A DNA stretch of 45,192 nt. Origin: Verrucomicrobiota bacterium (lineage in GTDB: Bacteria; Verrucomicrobiota; Verrucomicrobiia; Palsa-1439). The notes beneath the pieces are model-generated. The model ran no database searches, was not told where the DNA came from, and saw only the letters and a program-made list of their open reading frames with translations. Position 1 is the first letter of the stretch, and each line of letters starts with the position of its first letter. The stretch lies in the NCBI GenBank assembly GCA_016871575.1, contig VHCW01000033.1, forward strand, positions 1 through 45,192, given 5' to 3'. Position numbers and translations under genes: made by a program. Shown here piece by piece: positions 4,457 through 40,521 of the stretch.

Positions 4457-4467
4457 CAATCCGGATT

Positions 4468-4492: not shown

Positions 4493-4507
4493 GCGTACAC
4501 TCGCGGT

Positions 4508-11110: not shown

Positions 11111-11156
11111 GACGCAATCTCCTTTGGTTCGAAGGATGTTTGGTTTTGGGTTGTGC

Positions 11157-11330
11157 GCCGGCCGTTATTCTGACTTTGCAGCTTCAGACCTTCACCCCGC
11201 CTTCTCCAATTTGGATGGCCTTGGGGCGTCGTAGCTGCTTACAGATGCGCCACAGTCGCCGAATCTCACGGCGTTCCCTGCGCCGACGCGTTTGGCACGA
11301 CAAAGAACTGCGCGCAGATTACCAGCCTTC
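11157..11330 (-). promoter_or_regulatory. Cobalamin riboswitch (5' limit approximate)
   Basis: Read on the minus strand, the leader contains the hallmark blocks of the AdoCbl riboswitch in order. GGGAACGCCGTGAGATTCGG is followed by ACTGTGGCGCATCTGTAAGC (about 11279-11238), which corresponds to the usual GGGAA..GGTG..AATCCGG..ACTGT..CCGC..CTGTAAGC core. A GGCCATCC...GGAGAAGGC arm follows, and then AGTCAGAATAACGGCCGGC (11175-11157), the B12 box. The B12 box is 46 bases from the btuB start and about 30 from its ribosome binding site, so translation control by occlusion is plausible. I recognised it by eye and did not fold it. Confidence 0.82.
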
Positions 11331-18500: not shown

Positions 18501-19805
18501 TTACGAAATCGAGCCTTTGTCGATATCTTGCCGCAGGTTCATCGCCAGGCGGCGGAAGTTGCGCACGCGGTGGAAGGTGCAGTAGTCGGCGTCGTGCCGG
18601 CTGTGGGCGTCAACGCTGGACCGTGAGACCATGACCAGATCGTTCCCGTCAACCGCCGGGCTTGCATACATGAACGACTGCCGCAGCCTGCCGGCCCGCG
18701 CCACACAGCCCGCCGGGAACCAGTTCAGTCCGTCCAAGCCGTACATCAGCATCAGGAACCGCCGGTCATTGCCGCCACGCCCCCCGCCTCTCTCGTGATA
18801 CGGTTGGCCCCGGCCCCTTCGACTGAACTCATCGAGGTCTTTGAACTCGAACCGGTGCTGGCCATCCGCCGCAAGGTTGACCGTCGCCCAGAACAACTGC
18901 GAGACATCGTCCCGGATGACGCAGAATTTCAGTTGGCCGCCGGGCATGGGATGGAATTGGGTGAAGGGAAGTTCGATGTTTTCCCCGTCGTCGGCAACGT
19001 CGAACACGGCGGCCAGATTCGTCGTGGCCTGCAGCGGCGGTTTCACGGTCGCCAGCACGCGCAATCGGCCGCCGACGTTCAACACGTTGGGTTCCAGCAT
19101 CCGTTGCGAAGGATCGCTCCCGCGAATGCCCGGATTCAGCAGCGATTCCGGCAATCCGGGGAACGGGACGTGATTCGAGATCCGCCACGACTTCGGATCC
19201 ATCAGATTGGCCGACAGATCGCCGGCGACAACGCGCGGACCGCGCTGGTGTCCCTTGCCGACAAAATCGTCCGGCGACCAATAGAGCCAGTTGTCGCGAA
19301 TGGCAGTGCCGGTCTGGCAATTCCAGAATCTCCCCTCGAACAAGGTCACCGGTTTGGACCAGGTTCTTCCGCCGTCGCCACTGTGCAACAACAGCATGTC
19401 ACCCCCCCATCTCGGAAACGCGAACAGATACAGCCGGCCCGCGTGCTCCCACGGCACCGCGCTGCAATAGGGAAGTTGAGCGACGGGTTGGCCCCAGCTC
19501 CCGCCCCCATCGTTGCTCTGGACGATGTGACAGATCCATCCCTTGCCGCCCGGATTTACCGGTACGGCGGCCATCAGCTTGCCATCCGCCAATCGGACCA
19601 GCCCGGGGCCGTCCAGACCTCGCCCGCCGTCGGCATTGTGAAATACGACGGTGTAGTCTTGCGCCAAGGGCGTCGCCCAACCCGTGGCGCGGGGCCGGGA
19701 GGACGCGGCTACCGGGTCCGCCGCACGCGCCAACGGCCCCGCAACGGCGGCGCCGAGCGCTCCCAGGCCGCTGCCCAACAATTTTCTGCGCGGAATGGAA
19801 TGCAT
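18501..19805 (-). CDS. TAT-exported sialidase-like (BNR) beta-propeller protein
   Basis: A 434-residue secreted protein. It begins MHSIPRRKLLGSGLG, a near twin-arginine signal, with cleavage around ARAADP. The propeller carries Asp-box motifs SNDGGGSW and SGDGGRTW and ends with a conserved CTFHRVRNFRRLAMNLR tail. The start at 19805 follows an AAGGAG site; a longer open frame reaches 20672 but overlaps the next gene. It is a close paralogue of the protein at 24938-26206 (shared GPRVVxxDLSA, PKSWRISNHV, QRMLEPNVLNVGGR, VKPPLQATTNL). Such proteins may bind or cleave sialic-acid-like or uronic-acid glycans; catalytic residues were not verified. Confidence 0.78.
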   Translation of the reverse strand: MHSIPRRKLLGSGLGALGAAVAGPLARAADPVAASSRPRATGWATPLAQDYTVVFHNADGGRGLDGPGLVRLADGKLMAAVPVNPGGKGWICHIVQSNDGGGSWGQPVAQLPYCSAVPWEHAGRLYLFAFPRWGGDMLLLHSGDGGRTWSKPVTLFEGRFWNCQTGTAIRDNWLYWSPDDFVGKGHQRGPRVVAGDLSANLMDPKSWRISNHVPFPGLPESLLNPGIRGSDPSQRMLEPNVLNVGGRLRVLATVKPPLQATTNLAAVFDVADDGENIELPFTQFHPMPGGQLKFCVIRDDVSQLFWATVNLAADGQHRFEFKDLDEFSRRGRGQPYHERGGGRGGNDRRFLMLMYGLDGLNWFPAGCVARAGRLRQSFMYASPAVDGNDLVMVSRSSVDAHSRHDADYCTFHRVRNFRRLAMNLRQDIDKGSIS

Positions 19806-19831
19806 GATGGATTCTCCTTCCTTGGCAGGAT

Positions 19832-21916
19832 TCAGTCGGTGCCCGCCGTGGAAACCATGTACCGCTTCCACGTTTCCAGCAACCCGGGGCCAAGTGATTC
19901 GAGCAGTATCGGGCTTGTGGGCTCGAACTTGCGCGATCGTGGGTTCAGGTGCTTGTCCGCCATGAATTCCACGGTGAAGCAGGTCGCCGAATAGCGCTCG
20001 ACGCTCATTGCCCTGAACCGTGAGAAGTCGCTGCGCGATGCGGGCGATATCCGCGCCTCGGCAAAACCAAGATGCTCGTCCATCAACGAGTGGAGCAATC
20101 GTTGTTGCCGGGCGACATGGGGGACGTGCCTGGGTAGCGAGTCGGGGGTGAAACCGCGAAGATGATTCCGCGACTTCAATCCGCCTCCGGCATGGAAATC
20201 GAGCGCTCCGGCGATGACGCCCCCTTCGGCGACCCAGCCATCGATCGCATCGCGAACGGCCTTGGACTCCGGCTGCGTGACCGAGTCCCAGTCGCGATTG
20301 AGGTTGATGGCGTTGTGATTGAGCGACGTGTTGCCTCCCTCGGCCGCATTGTCGACATTGATCAGCGGAGCGATCAGCAGGGCGGTGGTATCCAGCAGCC
20401 CGGCTGCTTCGGGGTCGCGCCGCATCCGCTGGAGCATCGCATGCAGCACATGGCCGCCCATCGTTTCTGCCGGCGCATGCTGGCCCGAGATGATCACGAA
20501 GGCTCGCTTGCCCCGCGCAGGCGTGTCGTGGTTGGTGATGGTCCAGAATCGGATCGGCCGGCCGCCGTGACTGCGCCCGATCTCCCGTGTGCGAAATGCC
20601 GGCCAGTCGGCCAGCGCGTCCTCCGTTTTGTGGACGTGCGATTCCAGGTAGGGCACCACGCTGCACACCCACAGCGGACCGTCGGCGACCTCGATCTCAA
20701 CGTGCAGCCGGCCGAACACACCGGCATCTTTACCTTCGCTCCTCGCGAACCGCCTTGTCTTCGGAGCCTCCCACGTCTCCTGGTCGCGACTTACCCACGC
20801 GGTGGTTGTCATGGCCGCGTTTCCCTTGGCGGGAAGCAGGCACAGACGGTAGGTGCCCGGCGGTGCATCGACGCGGAAGTAGAAGTTGAACGACTCCGAC
20901 GGCTGGCCGTTGCCGCCTCCACTGAGGTAGATGACGCCGTCGTCACCGGCCACCGCATCGCGCCCGCTGCCGCACACCTCGGCCGGGTTTACCGCAACCC
21001 CCGGCGGCAACCCGCCGCCAAGCGTCGGGTACTGGTTTTCGCACTTGGCGATGCCGGACACCGCCACGTCGGCGACGGTTCCGGGAAACCGGGTCGCGTC
21101 GTTGCGGCCGCCCACGACGAGCACGCCTTCATCCATCGATAACCGCGGGCGCAAGAAGCCAGTGCTGTATCCGACGAGCTTGGGCAGCGGAGCGCCCGCC
21201 GGCGTACAGTAGATCATCGCCAGCGAATACTTCGGCATCTTGTGCTTGATGAACTCGGCATCGTCGGCAAAGTAGCTTCCCAGGTTGCGGCACACGACCG
21301 CCACGTGAACCCAGCGACCGCGGTGGGAATCATCGTCCAGCGCAACGGTGCTTGTGACCGTAAGCGTCTTGCCGCCCGTGTCGGCCCATCGTAACTGCAG
21401 CCGGCCCTCGGGCGTCAGCGTTAATGTCCATGCCGAGGCTTCGTGCTTGCCCGATTTCGCTTTGCACCCGGAATCGGCCGGAACCAGCGCCAGAATCTCG
21501 TGACCGGCCTTATCGTCCGACCGGTCGGGCGAAAGCCACACCCATGCCTCGACGGTGAACTCCGGGCGCGGAAGTCTTGGCACCCGTACTTGGCGCTGAT
21601 TCACGGGCACTGACAGAGGCGGTGGCGCGCCCGTCCGACAAGGACCGAACATGGGATTTCCGGTCTCCGTGCATTGGCCAACGCCAGCGGTTCCGGGGCG
21701 CCAAAGGGCCAGGAGAAAAGGCTCGTCGCCCGTGTAGGGCCTCGGAACTACCTGACGGGGCTTCACGTCAGACGGAGCACATTGCCCAGGATGCACAGCG
21801 CCTTCTTCCGCGGCGAGCAAGATGCCGGGTGAACCGGCGGCCGGCAGGCCGAGGGCCGCCGACAGGATCGAGCCGGCTAAAACTCCAACGCCGACGAAAG
21901 AAGGTAGAGTTTTCAT
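19832..21916 (-). CDS. Secreted LamG-like / M14 zinc carboxypeptidase-like two-domain protein
   Basis: A 694-residue protein with a signal peptide (about residues 1-36) and an N-terminal jelly-roll region resembling LamG/concanavalin-type domains (RPEFTVEAWVWLSPD, RGRWVHVAVVCRN). The C-terminal half resembles M14 carboxypeptidases: FVIISGQHAPAETMGGH supplies the HxxE zinc pair, and NHNAINLNRDWD and ALDFHAGGG supply the later conserved Asn-Arg and His positions. M14 enzymes remove C-terminal residues or, in some branches, act on peptidoglycan. It sits between two sialidase-like genes and is spaced 13-26 bp from them, so it is co-transcribed. Substrate is unknown; a glycopeptide would fit the context. 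Confidence 0.75.
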   Translation of the reverse strand: MKTLPSFVGVGVLAGSILSAALGLPAAGSPGILLAAEEGAVHPGQCAPSDVKPRQVVPRPYTGDEPFLLALWRPGTAGVGQCTETGNPMFGPCRTGAPPPLSVPVNQRQVRVPRLPRPEFTVEAWVWLSPDRSDDKAGHEILALVPADSGCKAKSGKHEASAWTLTLTPEGRLQLRWADTGGKTLTVTSTVALDDDSHRGRWVHVAVVCRNLGSYFADDAEFIKHKMPKYSLAMIYCTPAGAPLPKLVGYSTGFLRPRLSMDEGVLVVGGRNDATRFPGTVADVAVSGIAKCENQYPTLGGGLPPGVAVNPAEVCGSGRDAVAGDDGVIYLSGGGNGQPSESFNFYFRVDAPPGTYRLCLLPAKGNAAMTTTAWVSRDQETWEAPKTRRFARSEGKDAGVFGRLHVEIEVADGPLWVCSVVPYLESHVHKTEDALADWPAFRTREIGRSHGGRPIRFWTITNHDTPARGKRAFVIISGQHAPAETMGGHVLHAMLQRMRRDPEAAGLLDTTALLIAPLINVDNAAEGGNTSLNHNAINLNRDWDSVTQPESKAVRDAIDGWVAEGGVIAGALDFHAGGGLKSRNHLRGFTPDSLPRHVPHVARQQRLLHSLMDEHLGFAEARISPASRSDFSRFRAMSVERYSATCFTVEFMADKHLNPRSRKFEPTSPILLESLGPGLLETWKRYMVSTAGTD

Positions 21917-21929
21917 GGTTAGCCTCGAC

Positions 21930-23174
21930 TCATTCGTTGCCCGGCAGTAGGAATGCCGCGCGGTCGCGGAAATTCTTGATCCGGTGAAAGGTTGTCAGGT
22001 CGTTGTCGTGCTGGTTGCGGCCGGCGCGGGAGGTGCGGGACACGACGAGCAAATCCTCGCCATCAATCATCATGCCGCAGTAGTTCGAAGCCTGCCGGAC
22101 CAGCGGCCAGACAACGATGTATCCGGCGGGCAACCAGTTCAGCGCGTCGAAGCTGCAATAGAGCGCGAGGATGCGGCGTTCCTTGCCGGCCGGCATGGCG
22201 TAATGTTTGTTGCGTTTCAGCTTCTCGTTGAACGATGGGTCCTGGTCCTGAGTGCGGGTCGGCAGGGTGGCGTTCATCCAGTAGAGGCCGGTGACTGGAT
22301 CGCGCAGGATGAAGAACTGGTTCTGCGCGCCGGGCAGCGCGTAGAACTGGCGGAACCGGTAGTCGAGCGTGGCGCCGTCATCGGTCAGGTCGCAGATGAC
22401 GCCGATGCCGACACTGTCGCGCCCGGCGATCATGTAGCGCCAACTGAGCTGCAGCCGCCCGTTGACCTCGACCACGTTGCCTTCGAGAATCGTGGCGCCA
22501 CTCTTTCCCGGTCGGCTCATCGCGGGCGGCAGTTCGGGTCGGGGCAGCGGCGCGGAGATGCGCCACGAGGCGGGGTCGAGCAAATCTTTCGACAGATCGC
22601 CGGCGATGACATAGGTTTTGCTTCGTCCTTCGTCCATGCACCAGTAGAACTGTCCGTTGCGAATGACGTAGGAACTGGCCGGGTTGTAGTAGGGACCTTG
22701 AAACAGCGTCGCCGGGGCCGTCCATGTCTGCCCGTCATCGTTGGAGCGGATGATCTTCATGCCGGAGTCCCGATGGCGATGGACCGGTCCGGCGCCGAGG
22801 AAATACAGCGCCTTGCCGTGCGAGAACAGCGTCCCGCAGCAGAAATCGCTTTCCGCCGGCAATCGTTTCCAGCTTGCGCCGCCGTCATCACTGCGGAAGA
22901 ACAAAAGCGGTTTCACGGCGCCGCGCGGTTTGCCGCGGATCATCAACGGCGCCGCGCAGAGCAATGCGCCGTCGGATGTTCTGGCCAAGGACGGCGCATC
23001 GGTGAGGATGTAGCCCGATTCCATGGGAATCCCGGCGTAATGGTCGAAAACAACCGTGTAGTCGGCTCCGAGCGTGGGGTGCAGGTCGGCTGCATGGATT
23101 GGCGCCGCAATGATCGTCGCCCAAAGAAGCGTGCGGATGGCGCGGAGGGCGGTGTGTGATGGGGTGGATTTCAT
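21930..23174 (-). CDS. Secreted sialidase-like (BNR) propeller protein
   Basis: A 414-residue protein with a signal peptide (hydrophobic ALRAIRTLLWATIIAAPIHA, ending AADL) and Asp boxes SDDGGASW and SNDDGQTW. The C-terminal FHRIKNFRDRAAFLLP tail resembles the tails of the proteins at 18501 and 24938. It is a more distant member of the same local family. No TAT motif is seen, so export probably uses Sec. It lies between the LamG/M14 gene and the propeller hydrolase on the same strand with short gaps. Confidence 0.75.
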   Translation of the reverse strand: MKSTPSHTALRAIRTLLWATIIAAPIHAADLHPTLGADYTVVFDHYAGIPMESGYILTDAPSLARTSDGALLCAAPLMIRGKPRGAVKPLLFFRSDDGGASWKRLPAESDFCCGTLFSHGKALYFLGAGPVHRHRDSGMKIIRSNDDGQTWTAPATLFQGPYYNPASSYVIRNGQFYWCMDEGRSKTYVIAGDLSKDLLDPASWRISAPLPRPELPPAMSRPGKSGATILEGNVVEVNGRLQLSWRYMIAGRDSVGIGVICDLTDDGATLDYRFRQFYALPGAQNQFFILRDPVTGLYWMNATLPTRTQDQDPSFNEKLKRNKHYAMPAGKERRILALYCSFDALNWLPAGYIVVWPLVRQASNYCGMMIDGEDLLVVSRTSRAGRNQHDNDLTTFHRIKNFRDRAAFLLPGNE

Positions 23175-23185
23175 TCGGTAACTCC

Positions 23186-24871
23186 TTACGATGTTGCGGC
23201 AAACCAGAAGCTGTACAAATCCGCATTGCGCAGCAGGAATTGGATGCGGACATCACGGCCTTGCAGGGGCGACAGGTCGGCGCCGTCCTTCCAGCGGATT
23301 TCCAAGTCCAGTCCGTCGGCGGTGACGGGAACCGACACGTCCGGCGCTTCGGCGATGTGTTTGGCGAAACGTTCCCGCTCGACGACGCTGAAGCGGCGGG
23401 GATAATAATCGCCCAGCGAGAAACCGGGAATCGCCCGTCCCGTCTTTGCGTCGCGAATCTCCGCGCGGATCTCGCCCTTCGCGGCGTCGGCATTGACGCG
23501 CAGCCGCGATCCATCGACGGTCAGCACCTTGGTCAGCGCCACTCCGGGCTGCTCGCCCGCGCGCAACGACACGAACCCGTCTTCGCGCAGGTGCGCCAGA
23601 AAGATCGCCCCGGTCGGCTCCGTCTCATGGTCGATCACGGCGCCCCCTTTCGGCACATTGCGTAGCGACGACGCATGTCCAAACCGATCTCCTCGGTAAT
23701 AGAACCACAAGCGCCCGTTCTTCTTGATCGGCGCAGTCGTCTGGATCATGGCGCGATCCATCCGTGTGCAGTCAGGATCGGCCAGCGGGATGAAAGCCTC
23801 CCGTTCGCCGAGTCGCTGCCAGTCGCGCAGGTTGCGGCTGGAGACCAACTGCGGGTAGAGAATGCCGTTCTCGTAGATCTTCCGCTTTCCCGGGTGAATT
23901 ACGGTACCCGACATGCTGAAGATGGTGGGCAGGCCGAGATACACCCCTTCGTACGTGAACAGCGGCATGTTGTAGATTTCCGTGCGATACTCGGCGGGAT
24001 CGTTGACGAAGAGGATTCCTTCCTTCCGCGCCACGGCAGCGACCCGCTCGCCTCCTTGTCGCTGATCCAGTTCGTCGGCGTGAAAGATCAACTCCGGTGT
24101 GGTCCATTGCTCGAAATCTTCGCTCGTCGAAAGCGCCACGGCCCGGCCATACTCGGGAACGGGATGCTCCCCTTGATAAGCAACCCTGGATCCGTCCTGT
24201 TTCACCGTGGCCAGATAACGGTGTTTCAAAGAGTCGTACCCCAACCGATACTCATCGTGTGTGGGGGGGCCGTCGAGCTTCCGCCTTTCCCAGTTCAATC
24301 CGTCCGAAGACAAGAGCGGTCGGAGTTTGCCGCCAATCAGAGTCAGCGCCCTGAAGCGAGGTTGGGAGGCCACATTCCTGACGAATACCAGCCGGTTCTC
24401 GTCCTCCCGGCCGCGAAAGCCGAGATTGACGAGGTTGTCCGGTCGCGTCTTGCCCTTGGAAGCGGCGACCAGATCCAGTGACGGTTTTTCCCAATGAAAA
24501 CCGTCCCGAGAGGCGGCATAGAGGGGAAGCAGGTTCCGCCCGCCGATGTAAATCATCTTCCAGAGATTCTCTGCCTCATCCCACCACGGGGCGTTCCACA
24601 GTCCAAGACGCGGAGTCTCATGCGGCGTTGTCGCCTCCAGCACGGGCCGCTCGAACTTGGCGGGCTGATGCATTCTGCGGCACAGGTTCTCCGTTCGCTC
24701 GATGTGCTGGCCGTCAATGAACAGGCGCTTCAGACGCGGCGCGCCGCCGTTGCGTTGCGCCAACGGCGCAGCTTGAGCACCGGTGGCACGGAACTCTCCT
24801 CCGAAACAGCGTCCAGCCGTCAGGGCCGGGACGACCGTGGTTACTGCTTTGATGAAGTCACGGCGATTCAT
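23186..24871 (-). CDS. TAT-exported five-bladed-propeller glycoside hydrolase-like protein
   Basis: A 561-residue protein starting MNRRDFIKAVTTVVPA, a twin-arginine-like signal. The body has repeated Trp-rich blade motifs (LGLWNAPWWDEAENLWKMIYI, AASRDGFHWEKPSLDL, VALSTSEDFEQWTTPELI, LVSSRNLRDWQRLG, GRLWFYYRGDRFGHAS). These are typical of GH32/GH43/GH117-type propellers and their unclassified PVC relatives. An AGGAG site lies upstream. Its first 45 codons match the leader of the neighbouring sialidase-like gene at the DNA level although the bodies are unrelated. The glycan target is not known. Confidence 0.72.
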   Translation of the reverse strand: MNRRDFIKAVTTVVPALTAGRCFGGEFRATGAQAAPLAQRNGGAPRLKRLFIDGQHIERTENLCRRMHQPAKFERPVLEATTPHETPRLGLWNAPWWDEAENLWKMIYIGGRNLLPLYAASRDGFHWEKPSLDLVAASKGKTRPDNLVNLGFRGREDENRLVFVRNVASQPRFRALTLIGGKLRPLLSSDGLNWERRKLDGPPTHDEYRLGYDSLKHRYLATVKQDGSRVAYQGEHPVPEYGRAVALSTSEDFEQWTTPELIFHADELDQRQGGERVAAVARKEGILFVNDPAEYRTEIYNMPLFTYEGVYLGLPTIFSMSGTVIHPGKRKIYENGILYPQLVSSRNLRDWQRLGEREAFIPLADPDCTRMDRAMIQTTAPIKKNGRLWFYYRGDRFGHASSLRNVPKGGAVIDHETEPTGAIFLAHLREDGFVSLRAGEQPGVALTKVLTVDGSRLRVNADAAKGEIRAEIRDAKTGRAIPGFSLGDYYPRRFSVVERERFAKHIAEAPDVSVPVTADGLDLEIRWKDGADLSPLQGRDVRIQFLLRNADLYSFWFAATS

Positions 24872-24937
24872 GATTTGATGTCTCCTGATTTCTTGTAGTC
24901 GAAACCTCTATGGTTGCGCTGGAAGATGGATTGCATG

Positions 24938-26206
24938 TCATGACTGATCCTCCTGTCCAGTTTCGTCCGGCCGGAGGTTCATGGCGAGTTTTCGGAATTG
25001 GCGCACCCGGTGAAAGGTGCACGTGTCCGCGTCGTGCCGGTTCCGGCCGTTCACGCTGGAGCGCGCCACCACCAGCAGATCGTCGCCGTCAACAATGTGC
25101 GAAGGATACATGAACGACTGCGACAGCCGCCCGGCGCGGGCGATGCAACCGGCGGGGAACCAGTTCAGACCGTCGAGACCGTAGAACAACATCAGAAACC
25201 GCCGGTCGTTGCCGCCGATGGCGCCATTGTATTTCTTGCCGCTGCGTTTTTCGCGCGGATCCTCCATGCGGAACCGGTCCTGACCGTCTGCCGCGAGATT
25301 GAGCGTGGCCCAGAACAGTTGCGACACCTCATCCCAGACGATGCAGAATTTCACCTGACCTCCCGGCATGGGATGGTATTGCGTGAACGACAGCTTGACG
25401 TCCTTGCCGTCGTCGGTCACATCGAAGACCGCGCAGAGGTTGGTTGTGGCTTGCAGGGGCGGTTTCACCGCCGCGAGGACGCGGATGCGGCCGCCGACAT
25501 TCAGGACGTTCGGTTCCAACATTCGTTGCGACGGATAAGAGCCTTTCATGTTTGGATTCAACAGCGAGTCTGGCAGGCCGGGAAACCCGACGTGGTTCGA
25601 GATGCGCCATGACTTCGGGTTCATCGGGTCGGCAGAGAGATCACAGACGACCACGCGCGGGCCGCGTTTTGATGTCGCGACGTAATCGTCGGCAGACCAA
25701 TACAACCGTCCCTCGCGAATGGCCATCCCGGTTTGCACGTTCCAAAAATGTCCTTCAAACAAAGTCACGGGCTTCGACCATGTTTTCCCGTTGTCATCGC
25801 TGCGCAGCAACAACAGGTCATCTTCCCGATAGGGTTTGGTTCCCTTGGGATGCGCGAACACGTAGAGCGATCCCCGATGCACCCACGGCACCGCTGCGTT
25901 GTAGGGCAACTGCGCGGTCAGCTTCCAGTGTTGGCCGCCGTCAGAACTCTCGGCCACCTGCACCCGCGTCGGCCCGCGCGGTTCCACCGTGACGACGGCC
26001 ACGAGTGTGCCGTCGGGCATCTTGGCCAGGCCCGGTCCGTCAATCTTCCGAATCTCGGAGGCCGCTTGCGACAGCACCACGGTGTACTCTTGCGCCAATG
26101 GCGCAGCTTGGGCACCGGTGGAATGGCTCTCTCCTCCGAGACAACGTCCAACCGTTGCAGCCGGCACGGCTGAAGCCACTGTTTTGATGAAGTCACGGCG
26201 ATTCAT
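24938..26206 (-). CDS. TAT-exported sialidase-like (BNR) propeller protein, paralogue of 18501-19805
   Basis: A 422-residue protein with twin-arginine-like start MNRRDFIKTVASAVPA, Asp boxes SSDGGQHW and SDDNGKTW, and the tail CTFHRVRQFRKLAMNLR. Long stretches match the protein at 18501-19805 (for example KTWSKPVTLFEG, FLML.YGLDGLNWFPAGC), so the two arose by duplication. The leader instead matches the gene at 23186-24871. It is the first secreted protein of the string after the transporter gene, and a GGGAGAG site lies upstream. Confidence 0.78.
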   Translation of the reverse strand: MNRRDFIKTVASAVPAATVGRCLGGESHSTGAQAAPLAQEYTVVLSQAASEIRKIDGPGLAKMPDGTLVAVVTVEPRGPTRVQVAESSDGGQHWKLTAQLPYNAAVPWVHRGSLYVFAHPKGTKPYREDDLLLLRSDDNGKTWSKPVTLFEGHFWNVQTGMAIREGRLYWSADDYVATSKRGPRVVVCDLSADPMNPKSWRISNHVGFPGLPDSLLNPNMKGSYPSQRMLEPNVLNVGGRIRVLAAVKPPLQATTNLCAVFDVTDDGKDVKLSFTQYHPMPGGQVKFCIVWDEVSQLFWATLNLAADGQDRFRMEDPREKRSGKKYNGAIGGNDRRFLMLFYGLDGLNWFPAGCIARAGRLSQSFMYPSHIVDGDDLLVVARSSVNGRNRHDADTCTFHRVRQFRKLAMNLRPDETGQEDQS

Positions 26207-26292
26207 GATTTAATCTCTCCCAGCTTGAATTGTTGGCTCTTTGTTCATGGAAATGTCGGGTGCCGGCGCGCAATATCGTGTGTGGTGATGAT

Positions 26293-31540: not shown

Positions 31541-32353
31541 TCAGATGCCGTTCTCCAAGCTTCGCTCGTAGGCATGGTTGACGAGATAACTTTTGCCAAG
31601 CGCGTCACGGAGCGGGTCGGCGTCCTCCGCGCAGTAGCCCCAGTGCAGGTGACGACGCCAGCCTTCGGCATGCTGGAACCGACGCGACAGCTTGCCGAGT
31701 TCACGAGAATACCATTCCATCGTCGCAAGGTATTGGTTCATCTTCTGGCTTTTCGCCAGCCAATCCTGCTGGCTCCGATGCGCGGCCAGCGCGATCTTCT
31801 TCTGCTCAAACACCGCCGTCGTGTTCACAAACGCGCCGGGCATGATTCGCCGGCGCAACGGATCGCGCAGGCCGACCGGCATCGCGTGGTACAGCGTCAC
31901 ATCGCCGGCCACCGGTTTGCGTCGCGGAATCGTCCAGAAGTTCCTCATCCCGCGCACGAACGCCGCCGTCACGGAGAGACGGCAAGTATTCATGTGGTCT
32001 TCCATGTAATCCTGTGGCGAATGCACGAGCAGGACCGTCGGGTTGACATCGCGGACCACTGCCGTGAGCCGGCGGAGCGTCTTGTCCTCGTAATAGACAT
32101 CGAGGTCATCCACAAGACTCGGATGAAACTCCGCGCCGAGCAGACGAGCCGCCTCTTTCGCTTCGCGACCGCGGATACGGATCAGTTCGGCGGCCGGATA
32201 GACCTGACTGCCGCAGGAGCCGTTGGCGACGTTCATGTAATGCGTCTCGTACCCGGCCTGTTTCAACAGCACCAGCGTCCCGGCCATCATGAACTCGATG
32301 TCGTCCGGGTGACACCCAATCGCCATGGCAACGTGATTGTTCATGGTGCGCAT
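31541..32353 (-). CDS. PIG-L family deacetylase (LmbE-like)
   Basis: A 270-residue zinc-dependent N-acetyl-sugar deacetylase-like protein. The zinc motif CHPDDIEFMMAGTL lies near the N-terminus. LVHSPQDYMEDHMNTCRL supplies the third ligand, and RIRGREAKEAARLLGAE resembles the usual family helix. The family removes acetyl groups from GlcNAc-type sugars. No signal peptide is visible, so it acts in the cytoplasm, unlike the TAT-exported oxidoreductase next to it. It would suit an amino-sugar part of the carbohydrate cluster. Confidence 0.88.
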   Translation of the reverse strand: MRTMNNHVAMAIGCHPDDIEFMMAGTLVLLKQAGYETHYMNVANGSCGSQVYPAAELIRIRGREAKEAARLLGAEFHPSLVDDLDVYYEDKTLRRLTAVVRDVNPTVLLVHSPQDYMEDHMNTCRLSVTAAFVRGMRNFWTIPRRKPVAGDVTLYHAMPVGLRDPLRRRIMPGAFVNTTAVFEQKKIALAAHRSQQDWLAKSQKMNQYLATMEWYSRELGKLSRRFQHAEGWRRHLHWGYCAEDADPLRDALGKSYLVNHAYERSLENGI

Positions 32354-32406: not shown

Positions 32407-33633
32407 TTGGCTTGCCGTGGGGTACGCGGGAGAGTACGAATCACGCTGACAAAGGAGACGGAATTGCAAATTGCACTGTTGGCAGTCTTGCACTTGTTTG
32501 GTTGTTTCGCAAGTAAACCGGGCGAATCGTCCGGAACCATTGGTCTTGCGCCAACTGAATCGGAATGTACTCGTTTCGAAGTTTCCCCCTTACCCCGCCT
32601 GCACAAGCGTAATCTGGGCGTCGAAAGCAATTTCCTGTCAGTTGGAATTCTGCTTGCTGCCGGTATCGCAGCCACGCCACTCACGGAACAGCAACCCAGA
32701 AAAGAGCAAGTGCGAGTTGTGTACGTGATTCCCAGAGACCGCAAGCCGTGGCCGGAGTTCAACAACCGTGTCAGCGTCTGGTTGAAAGACACACAGTGGT
32801 ACTTTGCGTGTCAGATGCATGCGCATGGCTTCGGCTGGCGCACCTTCGACTACGCGAAGGGTGCAGATGGAAATGCTCAGGTCGTAGTCCTTCAGGCTCG
32901 GACGCCGAATGATGCAATGTTTTCGCTTTCCGAAGTTTGCAAACCAGAGAATGAACTTCTTGATGGGTACATAAAGAGACTATCTGCCCGCGAGCAACAA
33001 GCATGGAAGTCATCTGTAGTGATTCTGTTTCGTGAGACGCTGCAAATGAAAGACGATGGGTCCTTGCTGTTTGGAACTGCGCGCGGCGGAAACAAGAGGG
33101 CGTATGTTACTTCAGCATACCTTCGTCTAGGTCATTCCCGCCTGTTCATGAGCGCGACCCCACCTGAGGGTTTTGTATTTGAGGACTTGGTCAGTGCTGC
33201 GAAGCAAGGACATCAGAACCCGGATGTTCTTCAGAAGCCCCTTAAGGCCACTGCATTCAAGGCGTTCAGTGGGTCGAAGTCATCGGTAGGGAAGATAAGT
33301 TCTCGCTGTTATGGTGGTCCGATGCACGAATTGGGTCATGCGTTCGGACTTTCGCACACGGGAACGCTTCTTGGGGCTAAAGAGTATGAACGCCGGCTGA
33401 GCCTTGGCGGCAATTGGCTGATGAGCACACACTTCACCAACATTGGTGGGAATTTCGTCGCCGAGTACAGAGATGGATGTGCAGGTCTTGCAAAGGAGGA
33501 GGCGGCGATTCTGGCCAAGAGCCCGTTTTTCTGGAAAGTGATGACGGACAAGGAAGCAGCGATGGCACCGTCAACGGGTGCCCCTCCAACTGTCGGGGGA
33601 CGAACTGCTGCCACGGGTGCGAGGTCGCGTTGA
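32407..33633 (+). CDS. Metzincin-like zinc metalloprotease (start uncertain)
   Basis: The frame encodes up to 408 residues. A metzincin zinc site HELGHAFGLSH (HExxHxxGxxH) lies about 310 residues in, followed by NWLMSTHFTN with a Met that could form the Met-turn. Before it comes a domain with RVVYVIPRDRKPWPEF and WYFACQMHAHGF. The usual starts are poor: TTG 32407 would make the first 65 codons read through the 34-nt repeat, whereas a signal-like VGILLAAGIAATP begins just after it. Base composition is less GC-rich than in neighbouring genes, which suggests transfer. Its substrate is unknown. Confidence 0.65.
   Translation: MACRGVRGRVRITLTKETELQIALLAVLHLFGCFASKPGESSGTIGLAPTESECTRFEVSPLPRLHKRNLGVESNFLSVGILLAAGIAATPLTEQQPRKEQVRVVYVIPRDRKPWPEFNNRVSVWLKDTQWYFACQMHAHGFGWRTFDYAKGADGNAQVVVLQARTPNDAMFSLSEVCKPENELLDGYIKRLSAREQQAWKSSVVILFRETLQMKDDGSLLFGTARGGNKRAYVTSAYLRLGHSRLFMSATPPEGFVFEDLVSAAKQGHQNPDVLQKPLKATAFKAFSGSKSSVGKISSRCYGGPMHELGHAFGLSHTGTLLGAKEYERRLSLGGNWLMSTHFTNIGGNFVAEYRDGCAGLAKEEAAILAKSPFFWKVMTDKEAAMAPSTGAPPTVGGRTAATGARSR
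32601..32634 (+). repeat. 34-nt direct repeat, copy A
   Basis: First of three copies (others at 33717 and 35405). It contains the invariant core GGCGTC followed after five bases by CAATTTC. By direct comparison 22 of 34 positions are identical in all three copies. This copy lies within the open frame of the metalloprotease, just before its signal-like segment. Confidence 0.6.
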
Positions 33634-33704
33634 CAAGGGCACTGGGGATGTCAACGAGAAGACCGACGACGATGCCGCGGACTGAAGCCTGAGGGAAAGC
33701 TCCT

Positions 33705-33714
33705 CCCCCCCCCC
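33705..33714 (+). repeat. C10 homopolymer tract
   Basis: Ten consecutive C residues, preceded by TCCT, lie 72 bases after the metalloprotease stop and 3 bases before repeat copy B. It is a candidate slippage site or an assembly-sensitive position. Confidence 0.9.
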
Positions 33715-33716
33715 GT

Positions 33717-33750
33717 GCGCATGTGTGATTCGGGCGTCAAGAGCAATTTC
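33717..33750 (+). repeat. 34-nt direct repeat, copy B
   Basis: Second copy of the 34-nt repeat. Its last bases CAATTTC lead into AGTTGG, as in copy A after a 4-base insertion. The minus-strand stop codon of the DUF1573 pseudogene lies at its end. Confidence 0.6.
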
Positions 33751-34300
33751 AGTTGGAGCCGGGCAGCGGTTCGAGTCGGGCGATGATGTTCGATTGCGAT
33801 GGCGTGGTAGTCGTGATGTCAAGCGGTTTGCCGTCGCTGCGCCAGACGCGGACGGTGGCCGTTGGTGGACTCGCCGACGCGAAGTTCGCCAAAGCTGAGT
33901 TGCATAGGCTCGGTGTCGTACAGCGGAACGAGGTTGGCCTTGACGGTAAGGATGACGCCGGTTGCGCCGGGGCTGTCAGTTTGGACGTAGATGTGCTTCT
34001 CGACCGGGCCGCGCGAGAAGCTGCCCAGGTTGAGGGTGAAAACGATCGTGCCGCGCTCGCTGGGCGTGAGACGTTCGTGGTTGACGCTGGCAATGGTGTA
34101 CCCGCAGGAGGTCGCGGGGTGACGGATCGTCACCGTCTCCGTGCGGCATTCTGAAAGGTAAAGGTGCCGGTGAGCGACGGCGGCGGGTTCGTCGTGCCAA
34201 AATCGCAGACGGTGGAGTCGAACTTCAGGCACGACGGCGGCGTCGCTGCGGTTGCCGGCAGCGAAACAGCAACGAGAAAAGCGATAAGGATGGTGCGCAT
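33749..34300 (-). pseudogene. DUF1573-domain protein broken by two frameshifts
   Basis: Three consecutive minus-strand frames together make one DUF1573 protein. The first (from ATG 34300) gives a signal peptide MRTILIAFLVAVSLPATAA and KFDSTVCDFGTT..FTFQNA. The second gives ETVTIRHPATSCGYTIASV, RGTIVFTLNLGSFSRG and IYVQTDSPGATGVILTVKAN. The third gives TATVRVWRSDGKPLDI through PLPGSN and a stop at 33749. DUF1573 proteins are exported proteins of unknown role, with the DFG and CGxT motifs seen here. Sequencing error cannot be excluded for the shifts. Confidence 0.7.
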
Positions 34301-34406
34301 AAGGTGCGAAAGTGTATAAATGTTACTGTGAACGTCCAGAGTTGACAAGTAGTGTGCTCGTTTCGCAGCAGTTCCATTGTAGTGAAACTCATGCACAGCC
34401 TGAATG

Positions 34407-35414
34407 TCAGACAGTATGGCGTCGTGAATGAAATTCATCCTCATCCCATTGTCCGAAGTAGTGCAATATTGCGTCGAAGACAACTCCGGAAGACGGGGCG
34501 CCGCATGTTGTCATCCAGTCTTCTATCGTGCCTACAATGATTGCTGACTGGCGAGGTAAACAAATTGCAAGGTTTGTAAACGGTGGAATCTTAGCGGCGA
34601 CATACGGCTGTTGGCTCAGTGCTGCATAACAAATGATCTGAACGATATGTTCACGTTTGACACCTGAAAGTGTACATTTTAATTCGACTAGCGTGTCACC
34701 TGCAATCCAATCACCGTCGCTCCCCATGGCGGCACCAATACCACCAAAAACCGGGTTCGGAAAGAACCGTCCTGAAAGCTGGAGTGACTGCACATTGCGC
34801 AGTAATTGTACGATTTCGTTTCCGATAGCAATTGGCACAGCTCCGGCGAGCCATGTTCGCACTGCCGACTTTGTCAATCGGTTTGGAAGTGCGTGTAGGT
34901 CTATATCAGAAATAGGACGAAACCCACGAATAACAGGTTCAAGCCTACCGAGGATGTATAACCATCCGACCGCGTCGCGGGATTCAAGGATGTCTTGAGT
35001 TACTGGAGAATAGACTTTCAGTGCGCTTGCAAGCTTTGCAGACTTACCACCACAGCTTTCGAGATGCTGAATCGCTCGCGTGGTAATATCGTGACCGGCT
35101 AACGAGAGTGCACCTCTATCCACCGCAAGGGCGACACTAGAATACAAGCTTCCGCGCCGTGTGTCATCGCTGGCAGGAATAAACCTTCCCGCTTTTAGGG
35201 CGCGGTTAATTTGAGTAACGGCACGACGTGAATTTGGGAAAAGCGCTCTTTGAAACTCTGGTATCTGCTGTAAGAGATCAGTTAGACACGCTGGCTTTAT
35301 GTCGTGGCGTAACGGTGGGAGTGCCCAGGCAGAATTTACAGGCGGCGAAGCAGCGATCTCTCGAATGCTGAGCACCATACGCTGTTTTCTATTTCTAACC
35401 CCCTGTGCAAGCAT
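34407..35414 (-). CDS. Hypothetical protein with a PD-(D/E)xK-like motif
   Basis: A 335-residue cytoplasmic protein of no family I can name. The C-terminal third reads GSDGDWIAGDTLVELKCTLS, then HIVQIICYAALSQQ. An Asp, a beta-turn, then E-L-K on the next strand, followed by a helix with conserved Gln and Tyr, is the pattern of PD-(D/E)xK nucleases. The N-terminal part is helical (TDLLQQIPEFQRALFP, AVTQINRALKAGRF). Its start codon lies inside the third 34-nt repeat, where ATG 35414 reads MLAQGV. DNA here is less GC-rich than in flanking genes. A defence or restriction role is only a guess. Confidence 0.6.
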   Translation of the reverse strand: MLAQGVRNRKQRMVLSIREIAASPPVNSAWALPPLRHDIKPACLTDLLQQIPEFQRALFPNSRRAVTQINRALKAGRFIPASDDTRRGSLYSSVALAVDRGALSLAGHDITTRAIQHLESCGGKSAKLASALKVYSPVTQDILESRDAVGWLYILGRLEPVIRGFRPISDIDLHALPNRLTKSAVRTWLAGAVPIAIGNEIVQLLRNVQSLQLSGRFFPNPVFGGIGAAMGSDGDWIAGDTLVELKCTLSGVKREHIVQIICYAALSQQPYVAAKIPPFTNLAICLPRQSAIIVGTIEDWMTTCGAPSSGVVFDAILHYFGQWDEDEFHSRRHTV

Positions 35415-35438
35415 GATCTAGGCGTCAAAAACAATTTC
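35405..35438 (+). repeat. 34-nt direct repeat, copy C
   Basis: Third copy of the 34-nt repeat. It ends CAATTTC and runs into three tandem TTCAG units (35436-35450). The stop codon of the Gfo/Idh gene (35442) lies in these units. On the minus strand its left half contains the start codon of the hypothetical nuclease-like gene. Confidence 0.6.
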
Positions 35439-35441
35439 AGT

Positions 35442-36470
35442 TCAGTTCAGTTTCACAACCTGCCCGGTCTTGATGGATTTCTCCTCGGCCTCGCAAATCT
35501 CCACCGCGCTGGCGCCGTCCCTGCCTGTTACGATGCTCGGCGGTGTTTTCTTGCGGATACACTCAAGCATGTAACTGAGTTCGCCAATGTAACCGTCACC
35601 ACCGGACGGTTTGATCGTTCGCGCCGGCTGGCCTTTCTCGAACAAGCGTAACGCATCGGCGCCTCGGACAAGCGTGTAGTCAACAGTCGCGTTCTCGAAT
35701 TGGACAGTGAACTCCATGTTGAACCCAAACCCGATCGTCATGGCCCAGCCGCCTTCCGCCGACACGGAAGCGCCGCCATCCACCTTGTACTGCGCGACAA
35801 CGTGGTCAATGGCACCGCTGATCTGAGAGTAGCCCGTCGCGTACACCGCCTTGGGACGCCCAAAGCAGTACTGGACGAAATCCACGTCGTGAATGTGCAG
35901 GTCGAGGATCGCGCCGCCGGACTTGGCGCCGTCCATGAAATCTTTCGACCAGCCGGGCGGCTCGGCGACGCGGCGGAACCGGGCGGCCAACACCTTGCCA
36001 TAAGTCCCCTGCTCCATCGCTTGTTTCATCCAGACATAGTCCGGCCAGAACCGGATGCACATCGCCGGCATGAAGAAGCCTTTGGCAGACGCGGCGGCAT
36101 TGACGATGTCGCGGGCGAGCACGGCGGTGCGCGCGAGCGGTTTCTCGCAGATGACATGTTTGCCGGCCTTGAGAGAAGCGATGGCGAGTTTCGGGTGCGC
36201 CATCGTCGGCACGCAAAGATCAATGAGATCAATGGTTGGATCGGCGAGCAGGTCGTCGAGGTTCTTGGTGGCTTTGGTCTTTGACATGTCGAGTTTGAGC
36301 GGCTCAGCGGTGCCGACGTTGCCGCTGATGCTGGAGAAATCGCCATCCACTGGTAAGCGGACGGCGTCGCAGATAGCGGCAATGCGCACACCGGGGATTT
36401 GGCGGTACGCCTTGATGTGTGTGACTCCCATGAAACCGAGTCCTACGATTGCAACGTTGATAGTGCTCAT
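35442..36470 (-). CDS. Gfo/Idh/MocA-family oxidoreductase
   Basis: A 342-residue cytoplasmic dehydrogenase. It has the Rossmann motif VAIVGLGFMGVTHIKAY, the family motif HVICEKPLARTAVLA (EKP lysine) and the later catalytic-domain motif GGAILDLHIHDVDFV with the conserved Asp-His. Length is standard. Substrates of this family are mostly sugars, inositols and pseudoglycosides; nothing here narrows it down. It stands alone between the accessory island and the divergent alpha/beta hydrolase. Confidence 0.9.
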   Translation of the reverse strand: MSTINVAIVGLGFMGVTHIKAYRQIPGVRIAAICDAVRLPVDGDFSSISGNVGTAEPLKLDMSKTKATKNLDDLLADPTIDLIDLCVPTMAHPKLAIASLKAGKHVICEKPLARTAVLARDIVNAAASAKGFFMPAMCIRFWPDYVWMKQAMEQGTYGKVLAARFRRVAEPPGWSKDFMDGAKSGGAILDLHIHDVDFVQYCFGRPKAVYATGYSQISGAIDHVVAQYKVDGGASVSAEGGWAMTIGFGFNMEFTVQFENATVDYTLVRGADALRLFEKGQPARTIKPSGGDGYIGELSYMLECIRKKTPPSIVTGRDGASAVEICEAEEKSIKTGQVVKLN

Positions 36471-36557: not shown

Positions 36558-37364
36558 TTGAAACGCATGCTTGAACTTGTTTTGGTGCTCTTATTCGGGC
36601 TGCTGGCGTTTGCACTGATGCTGCGCTGGCGCGAGCCTTCGATGATCTACTACCCGATGCGGGAGATGGAGGGGACGCCTGCCCAAGCCGGTCTGAAATT
36701 CGAGGATGTCTGGCTCACCACCAGCGATGGCGTGAAGATTCACGGCTGGTACGTGCCAGCCGCCGGGACGGCGGCCACTACAATCCTCTTCCTCCATGGC
36801 AATGCCGGGAATATTTCACATCGCTTGGAGAAGTTGGCCATCCTCCACAACCTCGGAGCCGCCACGCTCATCATTGACTACCGCGGCTACGGACTCAGTG
36901 ACAACCGCCAACCTGATGAGCAAGGCACTTACCACGACGCCCAAGCTGCGTATGACTGGCTTGCCAAACGCCACAGCCAGATCATTCTCTACGGCGAATC
37001 GCTCGGAACGGCTGTCGCCGTCGAACTCGCCACGCGCGTGTCCTGCAACGGTCTCATCATCGAGGAACCGTTTACCTCCATCGCCGATGTCGGACAGAAG
37101 ATGTTCCCCTTCCTGCCTGTGCGGCTCATCGCCAAGACCAAGTACGACTCCCTCAGCAAGATGCCGAAGCTTCGCGCCCCGTTGCTCATCCTCCACAGCC
37201 GCGAGGACGAGATGTTTCCGATGAGCTACGCCGAACGCCTCCTCGCTGCGGCGCCCGAACCGAAACGGCTTGTTGAACTCCGCGGCAGCCACAACGACGC
37301 CTTCCTCGTCAGCGCCCCCGTGTATCGTCAGGCGCTCGCCGACTTCCTCGCGGCGCGACGTTGA
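36558..37364 (+). CDS. Membrane-anchored alpha/beta hydrolase carrying an in-frame REP peptide
   Basis: A 268-residue alpha/beta hydrolase (BEM46/ABHD13-like). It has an N-terminal membrane helix (LVLVLLFGLLAFALML) and the oxyanion segment LFLHGNAGNISHRL. The nucleophile elbow is LYGESLGTA, the acid Asp is probably in LLILHSREDEMFP, and the His is in LRGSHNDAF. The start is TTG 36558 or ATG 36567. The loop before the LFLHGNAGN strand contains AAGTAATT (residues 68-75 from TTG), encoded by the same 24-nt REP as in folP. Its stop is 35 bases before prfB on the same strand. Physiological substrate is unknown. Confidence 0.85.
   Translation: MKRMLELVLVLLFGLLAFALMLRWREPSMIYYPMREMEGTPAQAGLKFEDVWLTTSDGVKIHGWYVPAAGTAATTILFLHGNAGNISHRLEKLAILHNLGAATLIIDYRGYGLSDNRQPDEQGTYHDAQAAYDWLAKRHSQIILYGESLGTAVAVELATRVSCNGLIIEEPFTSIADVGQKMFPFLPVRLIAKTKYDSLSKMPKLRAPLLILHSREDEMFPMSYAERLLAAAPEPKRLVELRGSHNDAFLVSAPVYRQALADFLAARR
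36759..36782 (-). repeat. In-frame REP inside the alpha/beta hydrolase gene
   Basis: Identical over 24 nt to 4757-4780 in folP: GCCGCC, loop GGGAC, GGCGGC, then CACTACA (GTAG head on the minus strand). The reading frame is also the same, so both proteins carry AAGTAATT. The flanking bases differ. Confidence 0.8.
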
Positions 37365-38510: not shown

Positions 38511-39340
38511 GCACGATCCTCGACAAGATCGTTACCGTGAAACGCCGTGAAGTTGCGGCCTTGGTGCCGCGCGCCGAGGAACTCCGTGGCCGCGCCGCCG
38601 CGCGCAAAGACTTCCGCACTTTCACAGCCGCACTACGCGGCGCAGTGGGGACACCGCGCCCTACCAACGAAACGGTAGGGCGGGCTGTCCCCAGCCCGCC
38701 GCCCGTCAGCATCGCCCTCATCGCCGAAGTAAAGAAGGCGTCGCCGTCGGCAGGCGTTATCTGTCCCGACTTCGATCCCGTCCGCATCGCCCGCGCCTAC
38801 GAACAGGCGGGCGCTGCCGCCATCTCGGTGTTGACTGACCGCGAGTTTTTCCAGGGCAACATCGAGTACCTCCAGCAAATCCGCGCGGTCGTGAAATTGC
38901 CGCTGCTCCGGAAGGATTTCATCATCGAGGAACTCCAGATTTATGAAGCCGCTGCCTGCGGCGCGGACGCCGTGTTGTTGATCGCCGCCATTCTCGACGA
39001 CCAGCAACTGCGCGACTTCCGAGCCATTGCCGAACATCTTCAATTGGCAGCACTGGTCGAGGTCCACGACGAGATTGAACTTGATCGCGCCCTTGCCGCG
39101 GGCGCCCATCTCATCGGCATCAATAACCGCAACCTCGCCACCTTCACCGTCAGCCTCGCCACAACGGAGAAACTGGCGGCCCGCATCTCGAATGACCGTC
39201 TTATTGTTGCCGAGAGCGGCATCCACACCCGCGCCGATGTGGAGCGCGTCGCTCGCGCTGGTGCGAAAGCAATTCTGGTTGGCGAATCGCTGATGCGCAG
39301 CGGCGACATCGCCGGTAAAGTCAAAGAGTTGATCGGATGA
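38507..39340 (+). CDS. trpC: Indole-3-glycerol phosphate synthase TrpC with an in-frame REPIN insert
   Basis: TrpC closes the ring of carboxyphenylamino-deoxyribulose phosphate to indole-3-glycerol phosphate in tryptophan synthesis. The 277-residue barrel shows IAEVKKASPSAG, FDPVRIARAYEQAGAAAISVLTD, LLRKDFIIEELQIYEA, GINNRNLATF, VAESGIH and AILVGESLM. It is longer than the usual roughly 255-265. Residues 45-66 (GAVGTPRPTNET then VGRAVPSPPP) sit just before VSIALIAEVKK and are encoded by an inverted REP pair. Start and stop both overlap neighbours (ATGA with prfB and with the trpF start). Confidence 0.95.
   Translation: MSTILDKIVTVKRREVAALVPRAEELRGRAAARKDFRTFTAALRGAVGTPRPTNETVGRAVPSPPPVSIALIAEVKKASPSAGVICPDFDPVRIARAYEQAGAAAISVLTDREFFQGNIEYLQQIRAVVKLPLLRKDFIIEELQIYEAAACGADAVLLIAAILDDQQLRDFRAIAEHLQLAALVEVHDEIELDRALAAGAHLIGINNRNLATFTVSLATTEKLAARISNDRLIVAESGIHTRADVERVARAGAKAILVGESLMRSGDIAGKVKELIG
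38639..38700. repeat. REPIN-like inverted REP pair within trpC
   Basis: Left REP: a stem-loop of 22 nt (38639-38660, GGCGCAGTG..CACCGCGCC) then CTAC (38661-38664). A 10-base spacer CAACGAAACG follows. Right REP: GTAG (38675-38678) then a stem-loop GGCGGGCTG..CAGCCCGCC (38679-38700). Both halves are 26 nt, mirror each other and have GTAG heads facing inward. The element is translated in frame without a stop. Confidence 0.82.
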
Positions 39341-40521
39341 CATCCCCTCATGATACCCCCGCGCCGCGTCAGGTGACGCGGCCTACACCCGTTGTAGGCC
39401 GCGTGACCCCACGCGGCGGGGACGGGCAACATCCTCGCCGTCTGCGACGCCTGAATGAAGTCTGGATTAACTCCGGTTATCCCCGGTATTTTCTTACCAT
39501 TTGTGTTCAAGGTCGAAAGCGAGTCTTGGCGACGGAAACCATTCATCAGCGGTTGCTCACCTTCCTGCAAGGCAGCCCTGAGCGATACGGTTGGTGGCCA
39601 ACCCGTTATGTCATCATGCCGGATCATTTGCATCTGCTTGTTTGTGCGAATCCCGACGGTGTCGCGCTGGGGGCATGGGTCAAGGCGTTGAAGGCGTTCG
39701 TTGCGACAAGCGAGTTTCGCTGGCAGAAAAGCTTCTTCGATCATGTCATACGACATGACGAGAGCGAGACAGAAAAGTGGGAATATGTCCGCCAGAACCC
39801 GGTGCGAGCCGGTTTGGTTGCGAAGGTGGAAGACTGGCCGTACGCCGGGGAGATTCCGGAATACCCCGCGCCGCGTCAGGTGACGCGGCCTACAATAACC
39901 CAGAAACGCGCCGTACCGCTTGTCAAAGTCTGCGGCATCACCAACCTCGACGATGCGCGACTCGCCGCGGAGTTGGGCGCTGACATGCTCGGTTTCATCT
40001 TCTACGCGAAGAGTCCGCGCGCCGTCAGCCGAGAGGCAGCCGCGCAGATTTGCCGAACCGTGACCGTCGAGAAGGTCGGCGTGTTCGTCAACGAGACCGA
40101 GGCGAACATCCGCCAGACGTTTCAAGAGTGCGGGCTAACGGCGCTCCAGTTTCACGGCGACGAATCGCCTGCGTTCTGCAACTTATTCTCTGCCAGGAAG
40201 ATCAAGGCCATCCGCGTCCGTGACGCCGAATCGCTGCGGACAGCGTCGGAGTACGATGTTGACGCTTTGTTGCTCGACACCTACACTGACACCCAGCGTG
40301 GCGGCACGGGAAAGACGTTCGATTGGTCGCTGGCGGTGCAGGCGAAAACGCTGGGCAAGCCAATCATTCTGTCGGGCGGATTGGCGCCCGACAACGTGCG
40401 CGACGCCATTCGCACTGTGCAACCGTACGCGGTGGATGTTGCGAGCGGCGTGGAGCGCGAGCCGGGACGGAAAGACACGGAGAAGTTGAGGAGATTTTTT
40501 GAAGCGTGCAGAAATCCATAA
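39337..40521 (+). CDS. trpF: RAYT transposase fused in frame to phosphoribosylanthranilate isomerase (TrpF)
   Basis: One 394-residue frame starts in the ATGA overlap with trpC. Residues 8-17 ([10 protein letters not shown]) are REP-encoded. Residues about 40-172 are a REP-associated tyrosine transposase, with [14 protein letters not shown], the HUH motif MPDHLHLLV (His97, His99) and catalytic Tyr150 in [23 protein letters not shown] recurs at 177-186. From about 193 a complete TrpF follows: [59 protein letters not shown]. No ATG precedes the TrpF part; the only internal candidate is a GTG in the REP without a ribosome binding site. The stop overlaps trpB by 16 bases. Confidence 0.93.
39363..39417. 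repeat. Inverted REP pair at the left end of the RAYT element
   Basis: Left REP: GCCGCGTCA-GG-TGACGCGGC (39363-39382), a perfect 9-bp stem, then CTAC (39383-39386). Seven bases follow (ACCCGTT). Right REP: GTAG (39394-39397), then GCCGCGTG-ACCC-CACGCGGC (39398-39417), a perfect 8-bp stem. Heads face inward as in the trpC element. Confidence 0.85.
39870..39893 (-). repeat. REP at the right end of the RAYT element
   Basis: GCCGCGTCA-GG-TGACGCGGC (39870-39889), then CTAC (39890-39893). It is identical to the left REP at 39363-39386 and reads PRQVTRPT in the fusion protein. It forms the linker between the transposase and TrpF domains. Confidence 0.85.

Follow-up and report, generated by a model that had tools for sequence, protein, structure and literature searches.

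Worn right ends of an IS91-family element as probable boundaries of a one-way gene array in a Verrucomicrobiota genome

Gene capture by IS91 and ISCR elements is known mostly from resistance plasmids. Within the IS91 family, right-end fragments of 229, 360 and 679 nt account for 26% of IS801 insertions and insertions carrying neighbouring DNA for 0.7%, according to the available part of one study (PMC3189936). For ISCR1, the available sections of a further source describe a 232-bp origin region with outward promoters ahead of variable genes, and state that ISCR transposition was still without experimental proof in 2018 (PMC6218425). In this study, we analysed a 45,192-nt stretch of DNA from a Verrucomicrobiota bacterium (assembly GCA_016871575.1, contig VHCW01000033.1, positions 1 to 45,192; hereafter the window), in which three short direct repeats, A, B and C, stand around two gene modules. 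We propose, with a probability of roughly 0.78, that A, B and C are worn right ends of an IS91-family element, copies of a repeat here called R, and that such ends form one-way rows around foreign or displaced genes.

The locus and its relatives resemble IS801 and IS91 in having an IS91-family transposase, a fixed right end, nested discrete right-end fragments and occasional carriage of neighbouring DNA. They differ in that IS801 fragments measure 229-679 nt and arrays are not described in the part of that source at hand (PMC3189936), whereas here a 56-nt unit is commonest, with up to nine in 10.7 kb. With ISCR1 and the ISCR "sandwich" they share a transposase followed by an origin region of ~200-230 bp that holds an outward promoter and precedes variable genes, and also genes lying between two origin ends, as far as the available sections of the sources go (PMC6218425, PMC12772301). 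Unlike ISCR elements, the transposase here scores far under the clade Ia cut-off, the multi-unit arrays consist of the terminal ~56 nt only, and the host group is another. Integrons and CALIN clusters likewise have one-way gene rows bounded by a short repeat, downstream of promoter-like sequence and beside a fixed recombinase gene, but here a Y2 HUH transposase takes the place of the tyrosine integrase, and the window repeats do not fold like attC sites. Eukaryotic Helitrons capture gene pieces by rolling-circle read-through and encode a Rep/helicase protein. The read-through capture is alike, but the present hosts are not eukaryotic and no Rep/helicase was found among the Pfam matches of the transposase beside R, which are to Y2_Tnp and the zinc domain only (no separate search for a helicase was made).

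The first-pass annotation of the window had reported three 34-nt repeats in one orientation sharing 22 positions. A recount bore this out: the cores at 32601-32634, 33717-33750 and 35405-35438 all lie on the + strand and agree at 22/34 positions, and the full repeats extend beyond these cores (Table 1). We then used a profile built only from copies in G009, a genome of the same family, so that A, B and C did not train their own detection. The results showed that the top three matches in the window were exactly A, B and C, with the fourth at E 0.15, while decoy DNA from the window's genome (61.7 kb) gave E 0.55 at best. In the 5.19-Mb genome, the core GGCGTCNANANCAATTTC occurred exactly at A, B and C only; one more match appeared at 1 mismatch, and at 2 mismatches there were 35. 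These findings indicate that A, B and C are real repeats and not chance matches, and their profile scores identify them as copies of R. A carries a leader-type pyrimidine extension, and B and C are solo copies. Because the three diverge from one another by 23-30%, the window array is taken to be old. Core-pattern matches were also seen in genome_contigs (24 stretches, scattered taxa) and viral_contigs (at least 120); these were rejected as chance, and two R profiles run over all 144 gave none at E<=1.

R measures 50-57 nt, and its commonest unit is 56 nt. A sequence-only model, R2, made from ten copies with A, B and C included, matched at E<=0.01 in 30 of the 286 class genomes, weak matches counted, and those near threshold in distant genomes may be chance. 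The window's genome (G000) held 21 of these matches. In G001, the only other genome of the window's genus examined, nine near-identical 56-nt repeats stand between genes in one orientation over 10.7 kb, in the neighbourhood of a PIG-L homolog (G001:C220, L044); they end in GCAATTTCCTATCAGT, as do the window copies, and G009 bears a closer variant, CCTGCGCAAGCGTGATTCGG...AAAAGCAATTTCCTATCAGT. Solo R has a precise left edge (between T and TAACCC) and a precise right edge (after CTATCAGT). IS91-family elements insert at a tetranucleotide of the GAAC/CAAG type without target duplication. The base that follows R is mostly A or T as read by eye, with no clear tetranucleotide, and no empty site was found. 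At three positions (L290 9813 and 14597, L292 197), R breaks off after CAATTTC and continues into one and the same ~200-nt unit (CTGCTATGAGGCCGTGTCAACT...), as would be seen if R were the target of a second element.

The first-pass annotation could not assign the repeat to a known element. An assignment can now be made: R is the right end of an IS91-family element. In several arrays, an IS91-family transposase gene of ~450 aa lies ~200 bp upstream of a leader-type R. The transposases adjoining R in related loci matched Pfam Y2_Tnp (4.5e-21) and Zn_Tnp_IS91 (1.1e-17); against NCBIfam, the score was 174.9 bits for the IS91 equivalog (cut-off 125) and 160-173 bits for the ISCR clade Ia model, far under its cut-off of 925. 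The transposase search covered 25 genomes, 11 of which had a match; 33 matches were listed, 30 of them with a locus, and all 30 loci were scanned for R. We counted the transposases that kept their C-terminus (query position at least 424 of 450) and had at least 380 bp downstream (n = 14), the other 16 loci being matches to other protein parts, loci ending too soon or distant transposases. A same-strand R lay 116-322 bp downstream of the gene in 12 of the 14, from 8 genomes (10 at E<1e-3, 2 weak), and R within 400 bp upstream was found in 0/14. The intact element runs from the Y2 HUH transposase gene through ~200 bp with promoter-like sequence and a conserved short leader open reading frame (ORF) to R, and two loci (L318 and L247) share a left edge at L287:5494, which gives an element of 1,769 bp. 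Judged from these sequences, a ~1.77-kb IS91-family rolling-circle element, widespread in the class, has R as the last 50-57 nt of its right (origin-side) end. As for the integrase or recombinase that the first-pass annotation had suggested looking for, the enzyme implied is a Y2 HUH rolling-circle transposase, which adjoins R in related loci, rather than a site-specific integrase. An R array on G000:C143 also contains a second, distant member of the IS91 transposase family (3778-4728, L336; 26% identity).

We compared the element at G000:C129 with other loci. All 19 alignments reaching R (19/19) stopped 0-8 nt from its right end, and homology between element copies stopped at R. The left extents, measured from the right end of R, were 41, 56-57, 142-146, 162, 179, 207, 395, 497, 517 and ~1,860 nt. 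As aligned, the fixed right edge with nested left edges is the pattern of origin-anchored one-ended fragments.

Beyond R, the cargo differs. Between the congeneric loci G000:C129 and G001:C206, identity is ~80-84% from a kinase gene through the transposase and leader to the first R copy (R0), where the alignment ends; what follows is a methyltransferase gene in the former (segment GC content 0.43) and a PEMT-type gene in the latter (0.32). Two G009 loci, and likewise two G020 loci, have the leader and R in common with no alignment beyond. Other first cargos include FkbM methyltransferases, and one later cargo is a glycosyltransferase. Several segments between R copies are AT-rich (GC 0.32-0.49). 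Orientation was uniform in 17 of the 18 contigs with at least two R matches; on the remaining contig, G001:C206, a single partial match deviates. Among ORFs of at least 130 aa between R copies, 40/55 from 18 loci point with R, although these ORFs are not independent; the window counts 0/2 in this tally, the metalloprotease ORF beginning before A and being excluded by rule. At G000:C170, a PHP-domain gene is broken off at the left edge of R after its first ~205 bp, with the remainder of the gene absent beyond R, while an intact homolog (428 aa) is present at G000:C13 (81% over 242 nt). Exchangeable cargo between repeated boundaries, as read from these alignments, holds well beyond the window. 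The genome-wide consensus search proposed earlier found further R copies bounding other cargo, some of it AT-rich, and not an even, random scatter free of cargo. The earlier suggestion of cassette insertion stands in so far as R bounds differing cargo in related loci; a site-specific integrase is not implied.

In several arrays, the 5'-most R copy is preceded by a conserved leader of ~90 nt. CTTGAC occurs as a -35-like sequence in 8/12 copies, and many copies have a start of the GAAAGGAAAGGAAATG type together with a short ORF that encodes the conserved peptide EENFASV. This ORF (M..EENFASV...) reads into R, for example in the leader copy at L287:7121-7262, and it continues in frame into the cargo in the window (A) and at G000:C45. 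RNAalifold on the 12 leader copies returned a weak consensus (-5.7 kcal/mol; 4/21 pairs with two-sided changes). Of five single leader folds, one was clearly beyond shuffles (z -2.33) and the rest gave z -1.67, -0.84, -0.18 and 0.06. A leader hairpin formed by the inverted repeat GGAAATGC / GCAATTTCC is likely from these models and is not proven by covariation. In the window, the region before A holds a promoter-like pair, CTTGCC (32411-32416) and TACGAA (32435-32440), then an AAAGGAG ribosome site and the TTG start (32464) of an ORF, and an inverted-repeat arm GGAATTGC (32460-32467) faces GCAATTTCC (32627-32635) in copy A. This arrangement is suggestive of a leader remnant before A.

The two modules described between the repeats were confirmed, namely a metalloprotease ORF and a DUF1573 remnant with a nuclease-like gene (Table 1). 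The putative metalloprotease has the motif HExxHxxGxxH, its Pfam matches are weak and under cut-off (Metallopep 9.8e-6, M66 0.012), and its frame stays open through repeat A. The C-terminal part of the DUF1573 gene lies at 33819-34232; the N-terminal part, with a signal peptide, is in another frame at ~34150-34300, within the ORF 34130-34483. The nuclease-like protein, with a motif D..ELK read by eye, had no relative besides itself in the 286 class genomes. It resembles the PD-(D/E)XK nuclease of reverse-transcriptase (DRT) defence systems, and a defence role is plausible on this likeness. PHROGs gave no match on the window cargo, and NCBIfam none over cut-off. Two details depart from the earlier account: repeat A sits inside the frame that the metalloprotease ORF keeps open, and the nuclease ORF begins within C. 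The end of C coincides with the stop codon of the Gfo/Idh/MocA gene. Lower GC inside the modules was confirmed (0.547 for the first and 0.540 for the second, against 0.606 for the window), but other 1-kb windows of the stretch also drop to 0.52-0.53, and the two modules, at 1.1 and 1.6 kb, are somewhat small to be called an "island". The Gfo/Idh/MocA gene beside repeat C has a paralog with 79% identity in a different gene neighbourhood at G000:C149:3506-4550 (L055).

Table 1. Repeats, cargo and flanking genes of the array in the window
Feature	Position	Strand	Basis or remark
Repeat A	32590-32643	+	Leader-type R copy; independent profile E 6.6e-8; R2 model 46.1 bits
Leader+R profile match at A	32573-32643	+	Leader+R profile E 6.5e-9
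Repeat B	33704-33754	+	Solo R, poly-C expanded, 3' spacer lost; independent profile E 5e-6; R2 43.6 bits
Repeat C	35396-35447	+	Solo R, repeated CAGTT tail; independent profile E 1.6e-5; R2 41.2 bits
Possible IS91 leader remnant	32411-32467	+	Parts ordered as in 12 leader copies from related loci
Cargo 1, putative metalloprotease (HELGHAFGLSH)	Segment 32644-33703; ORF listed 32407-33633	+	ORF list
Cargo 2a, frame-broken DUF1573 gene	33819-34300	-	PF07610 2e-5, just under cut-off
Cargo 2b, PD-(D/E)XK nuclease-like protein, 335 aa	34407-35414	-	PADLOC RTasPDDEXK 8.3e-15
Left host flank, PIG-L family deacetylase gene	31541-32353	-	PF02585 1.4e-21
Right host flank, intact Gfo/Idh/MocA oxidoreductase gene	35442-36470	-	PF01408 1.8e-20

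The arrays probably arose as follows. The transposase would start at the right edge of R, run leftwards and stop at discrete or random points, so that runs of varying length would give right-end fragments of different lengths by one-ended transposition. Sometimes it would carry neighbouring DNA. New pieces joined beside an existing R would leave cargo bounded by R on both sides and lying downstream of the element's outward promoter, and this cargo may be expressed from the leader promoter. We infer the making of solo R by rolling-circle one-ended transposition, and likewise the joining of solo units with cargo. The window would then be an old, decayed array in the order possible leader remnant, R_A, metalloprotease, R_B, DUF1573 remnant with nuclease, R_C.

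Several observations sit uneasily with this origin. No transposase or clear terminal transposase remnant is present in the window, and the IS91 transposase search gave no match on its contig; with none left, the array probably cannot move without action in trans. The leader-only profile, with R left out, does not detect the region before A, the flank synteny comparison found no empty site for the window array in relatives, and 2/14 transposase ends lack R (L324, L334). The precise TAACCC left edge of solo R fits a pure one-ended process only with termination at a fixed point, and neither this TAACCC start nor the repeated CAGTT at some right ends is accounted for by the model. Simple insertion of R should leave both halves of a gene, yet the PHP junction yielded the left half alone. 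Nor is all of the cargo foreign, since the GC of some segments lying between R copies is the usual one of the host (0.59-0.63).

The precise edges on both sides of solo R, together with the many segments at host GC, would also fit R as an independent miniature two-ended mobile unit that inserts singly, in one orientation, as single-stranded DNA, the cargo then being local genome. Transposases of the IS91 type do work on single strands. However, the sequence to the right of R does not continue that to its left at either the PHP junction or the platform shared by G000 and G001, and several segments are AT-rich (0.32-0.49). We regard this explanation as unlikely for the arrays as a whole, and such insertion is possible for part of the R copies, given their edges. 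Much less probable is an integron or an attC cluster without integrase, with R as attC and the modules as cassettes moved by a tyrosine integrase. Same-direction repeats between genes and the mostly uniform cargo orientation (40/55 ORFs) would agree with it, and the outer letters of R, TAAC...AGTT, presumably resemble attC core sites. Integron integrases over cut-off occur in 4/14 genomes (G000, G001, G002 and G006), including a true one in the window's genome (G000:C1:35136-35966, L353; 401 bits). But no R lies within ~20 kb around that integrase, nor in the examined stretches around those of G001, G002 and G006, and R is found at IS91 transposase ends instead. Nor do A, B and C fold like attC: on both strands, their single-strand folds were no better than shuffles in 6/6 cases (z 0.1 to 2.6).

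False joining of separate loci at a short common repeat deserves thought, as the assemblies are fragmented and copies within one array are often identical. Yet two pairs of contig ends share an overlap of exactly 141 nt, so that words longer than R were used in those assemblies; the window copies differ by 23-30% and cannot be one collapsed repeat; and orientation is consistent in 17/18 contigs. An assembly artefact is accordingly hard to credit. We give equally little weight to an intergenic repeat unrelated to mobility and maintained for a role in regulation or transcription termination: R is often at gene ends, and leader copies hold promoter-like sequence and a short ORF, but R truncates genes and is tied to transposase ends, and the solo R copies of the window have no hairpin. 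The origin from worn IS91 right ends is thus preferred. A bolder extension would make the arrays an integron analogue on a HUH transposase, in which a platform of IS91 transposase, outward promoter, leader and R0, passed on vertically, adds, orders and expresses R-ended cassettes class-wide, with transposase-less R clusters such as the window as CALIN counterparts; we offer it tentatively and think it doubtful.

Other features of the window were recorded alongside. A GC-rich near-palindrome of 26-28 nt (CCGCCGGGACGGCGGC) lies inside an alpha/beta-hydrolase gene at 36757-36783 and recurs exactly, several times, elsewhere in the genome and in relatives. Strong GC-rich inverted repeats with a REP/MITE-like look (arms 83-87% complementary) are found at 39359-39421 and 39866-39895, and at 38637-38702, one of them apparently within a gene. 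Large diverged direct repeats at 18530-26220, with 71-82% identity over several hundred bp, are probably paralogous genes. Rfam detected only a cobalamin riboswitch in the window (11143-11326, - strand, 49.5 bits), and a tRNA search of the window found none.

A literature search, which was not a full survey and reached some sources in part, found no paper describing such one-way R arrays. The arrays here are chromosomal, one-way and bounded by the element's own end, and they recur in several families; two sister species have the same platform with different cargo, and the second module of the window brings a defence-like nuclease. Natural junctions are plentiful in them, and rules for starting, stopping and insertion may be read from these; the arrays also prompt the question of whether integron-like gene banking has arisen a second time, through another kind of enzyme.

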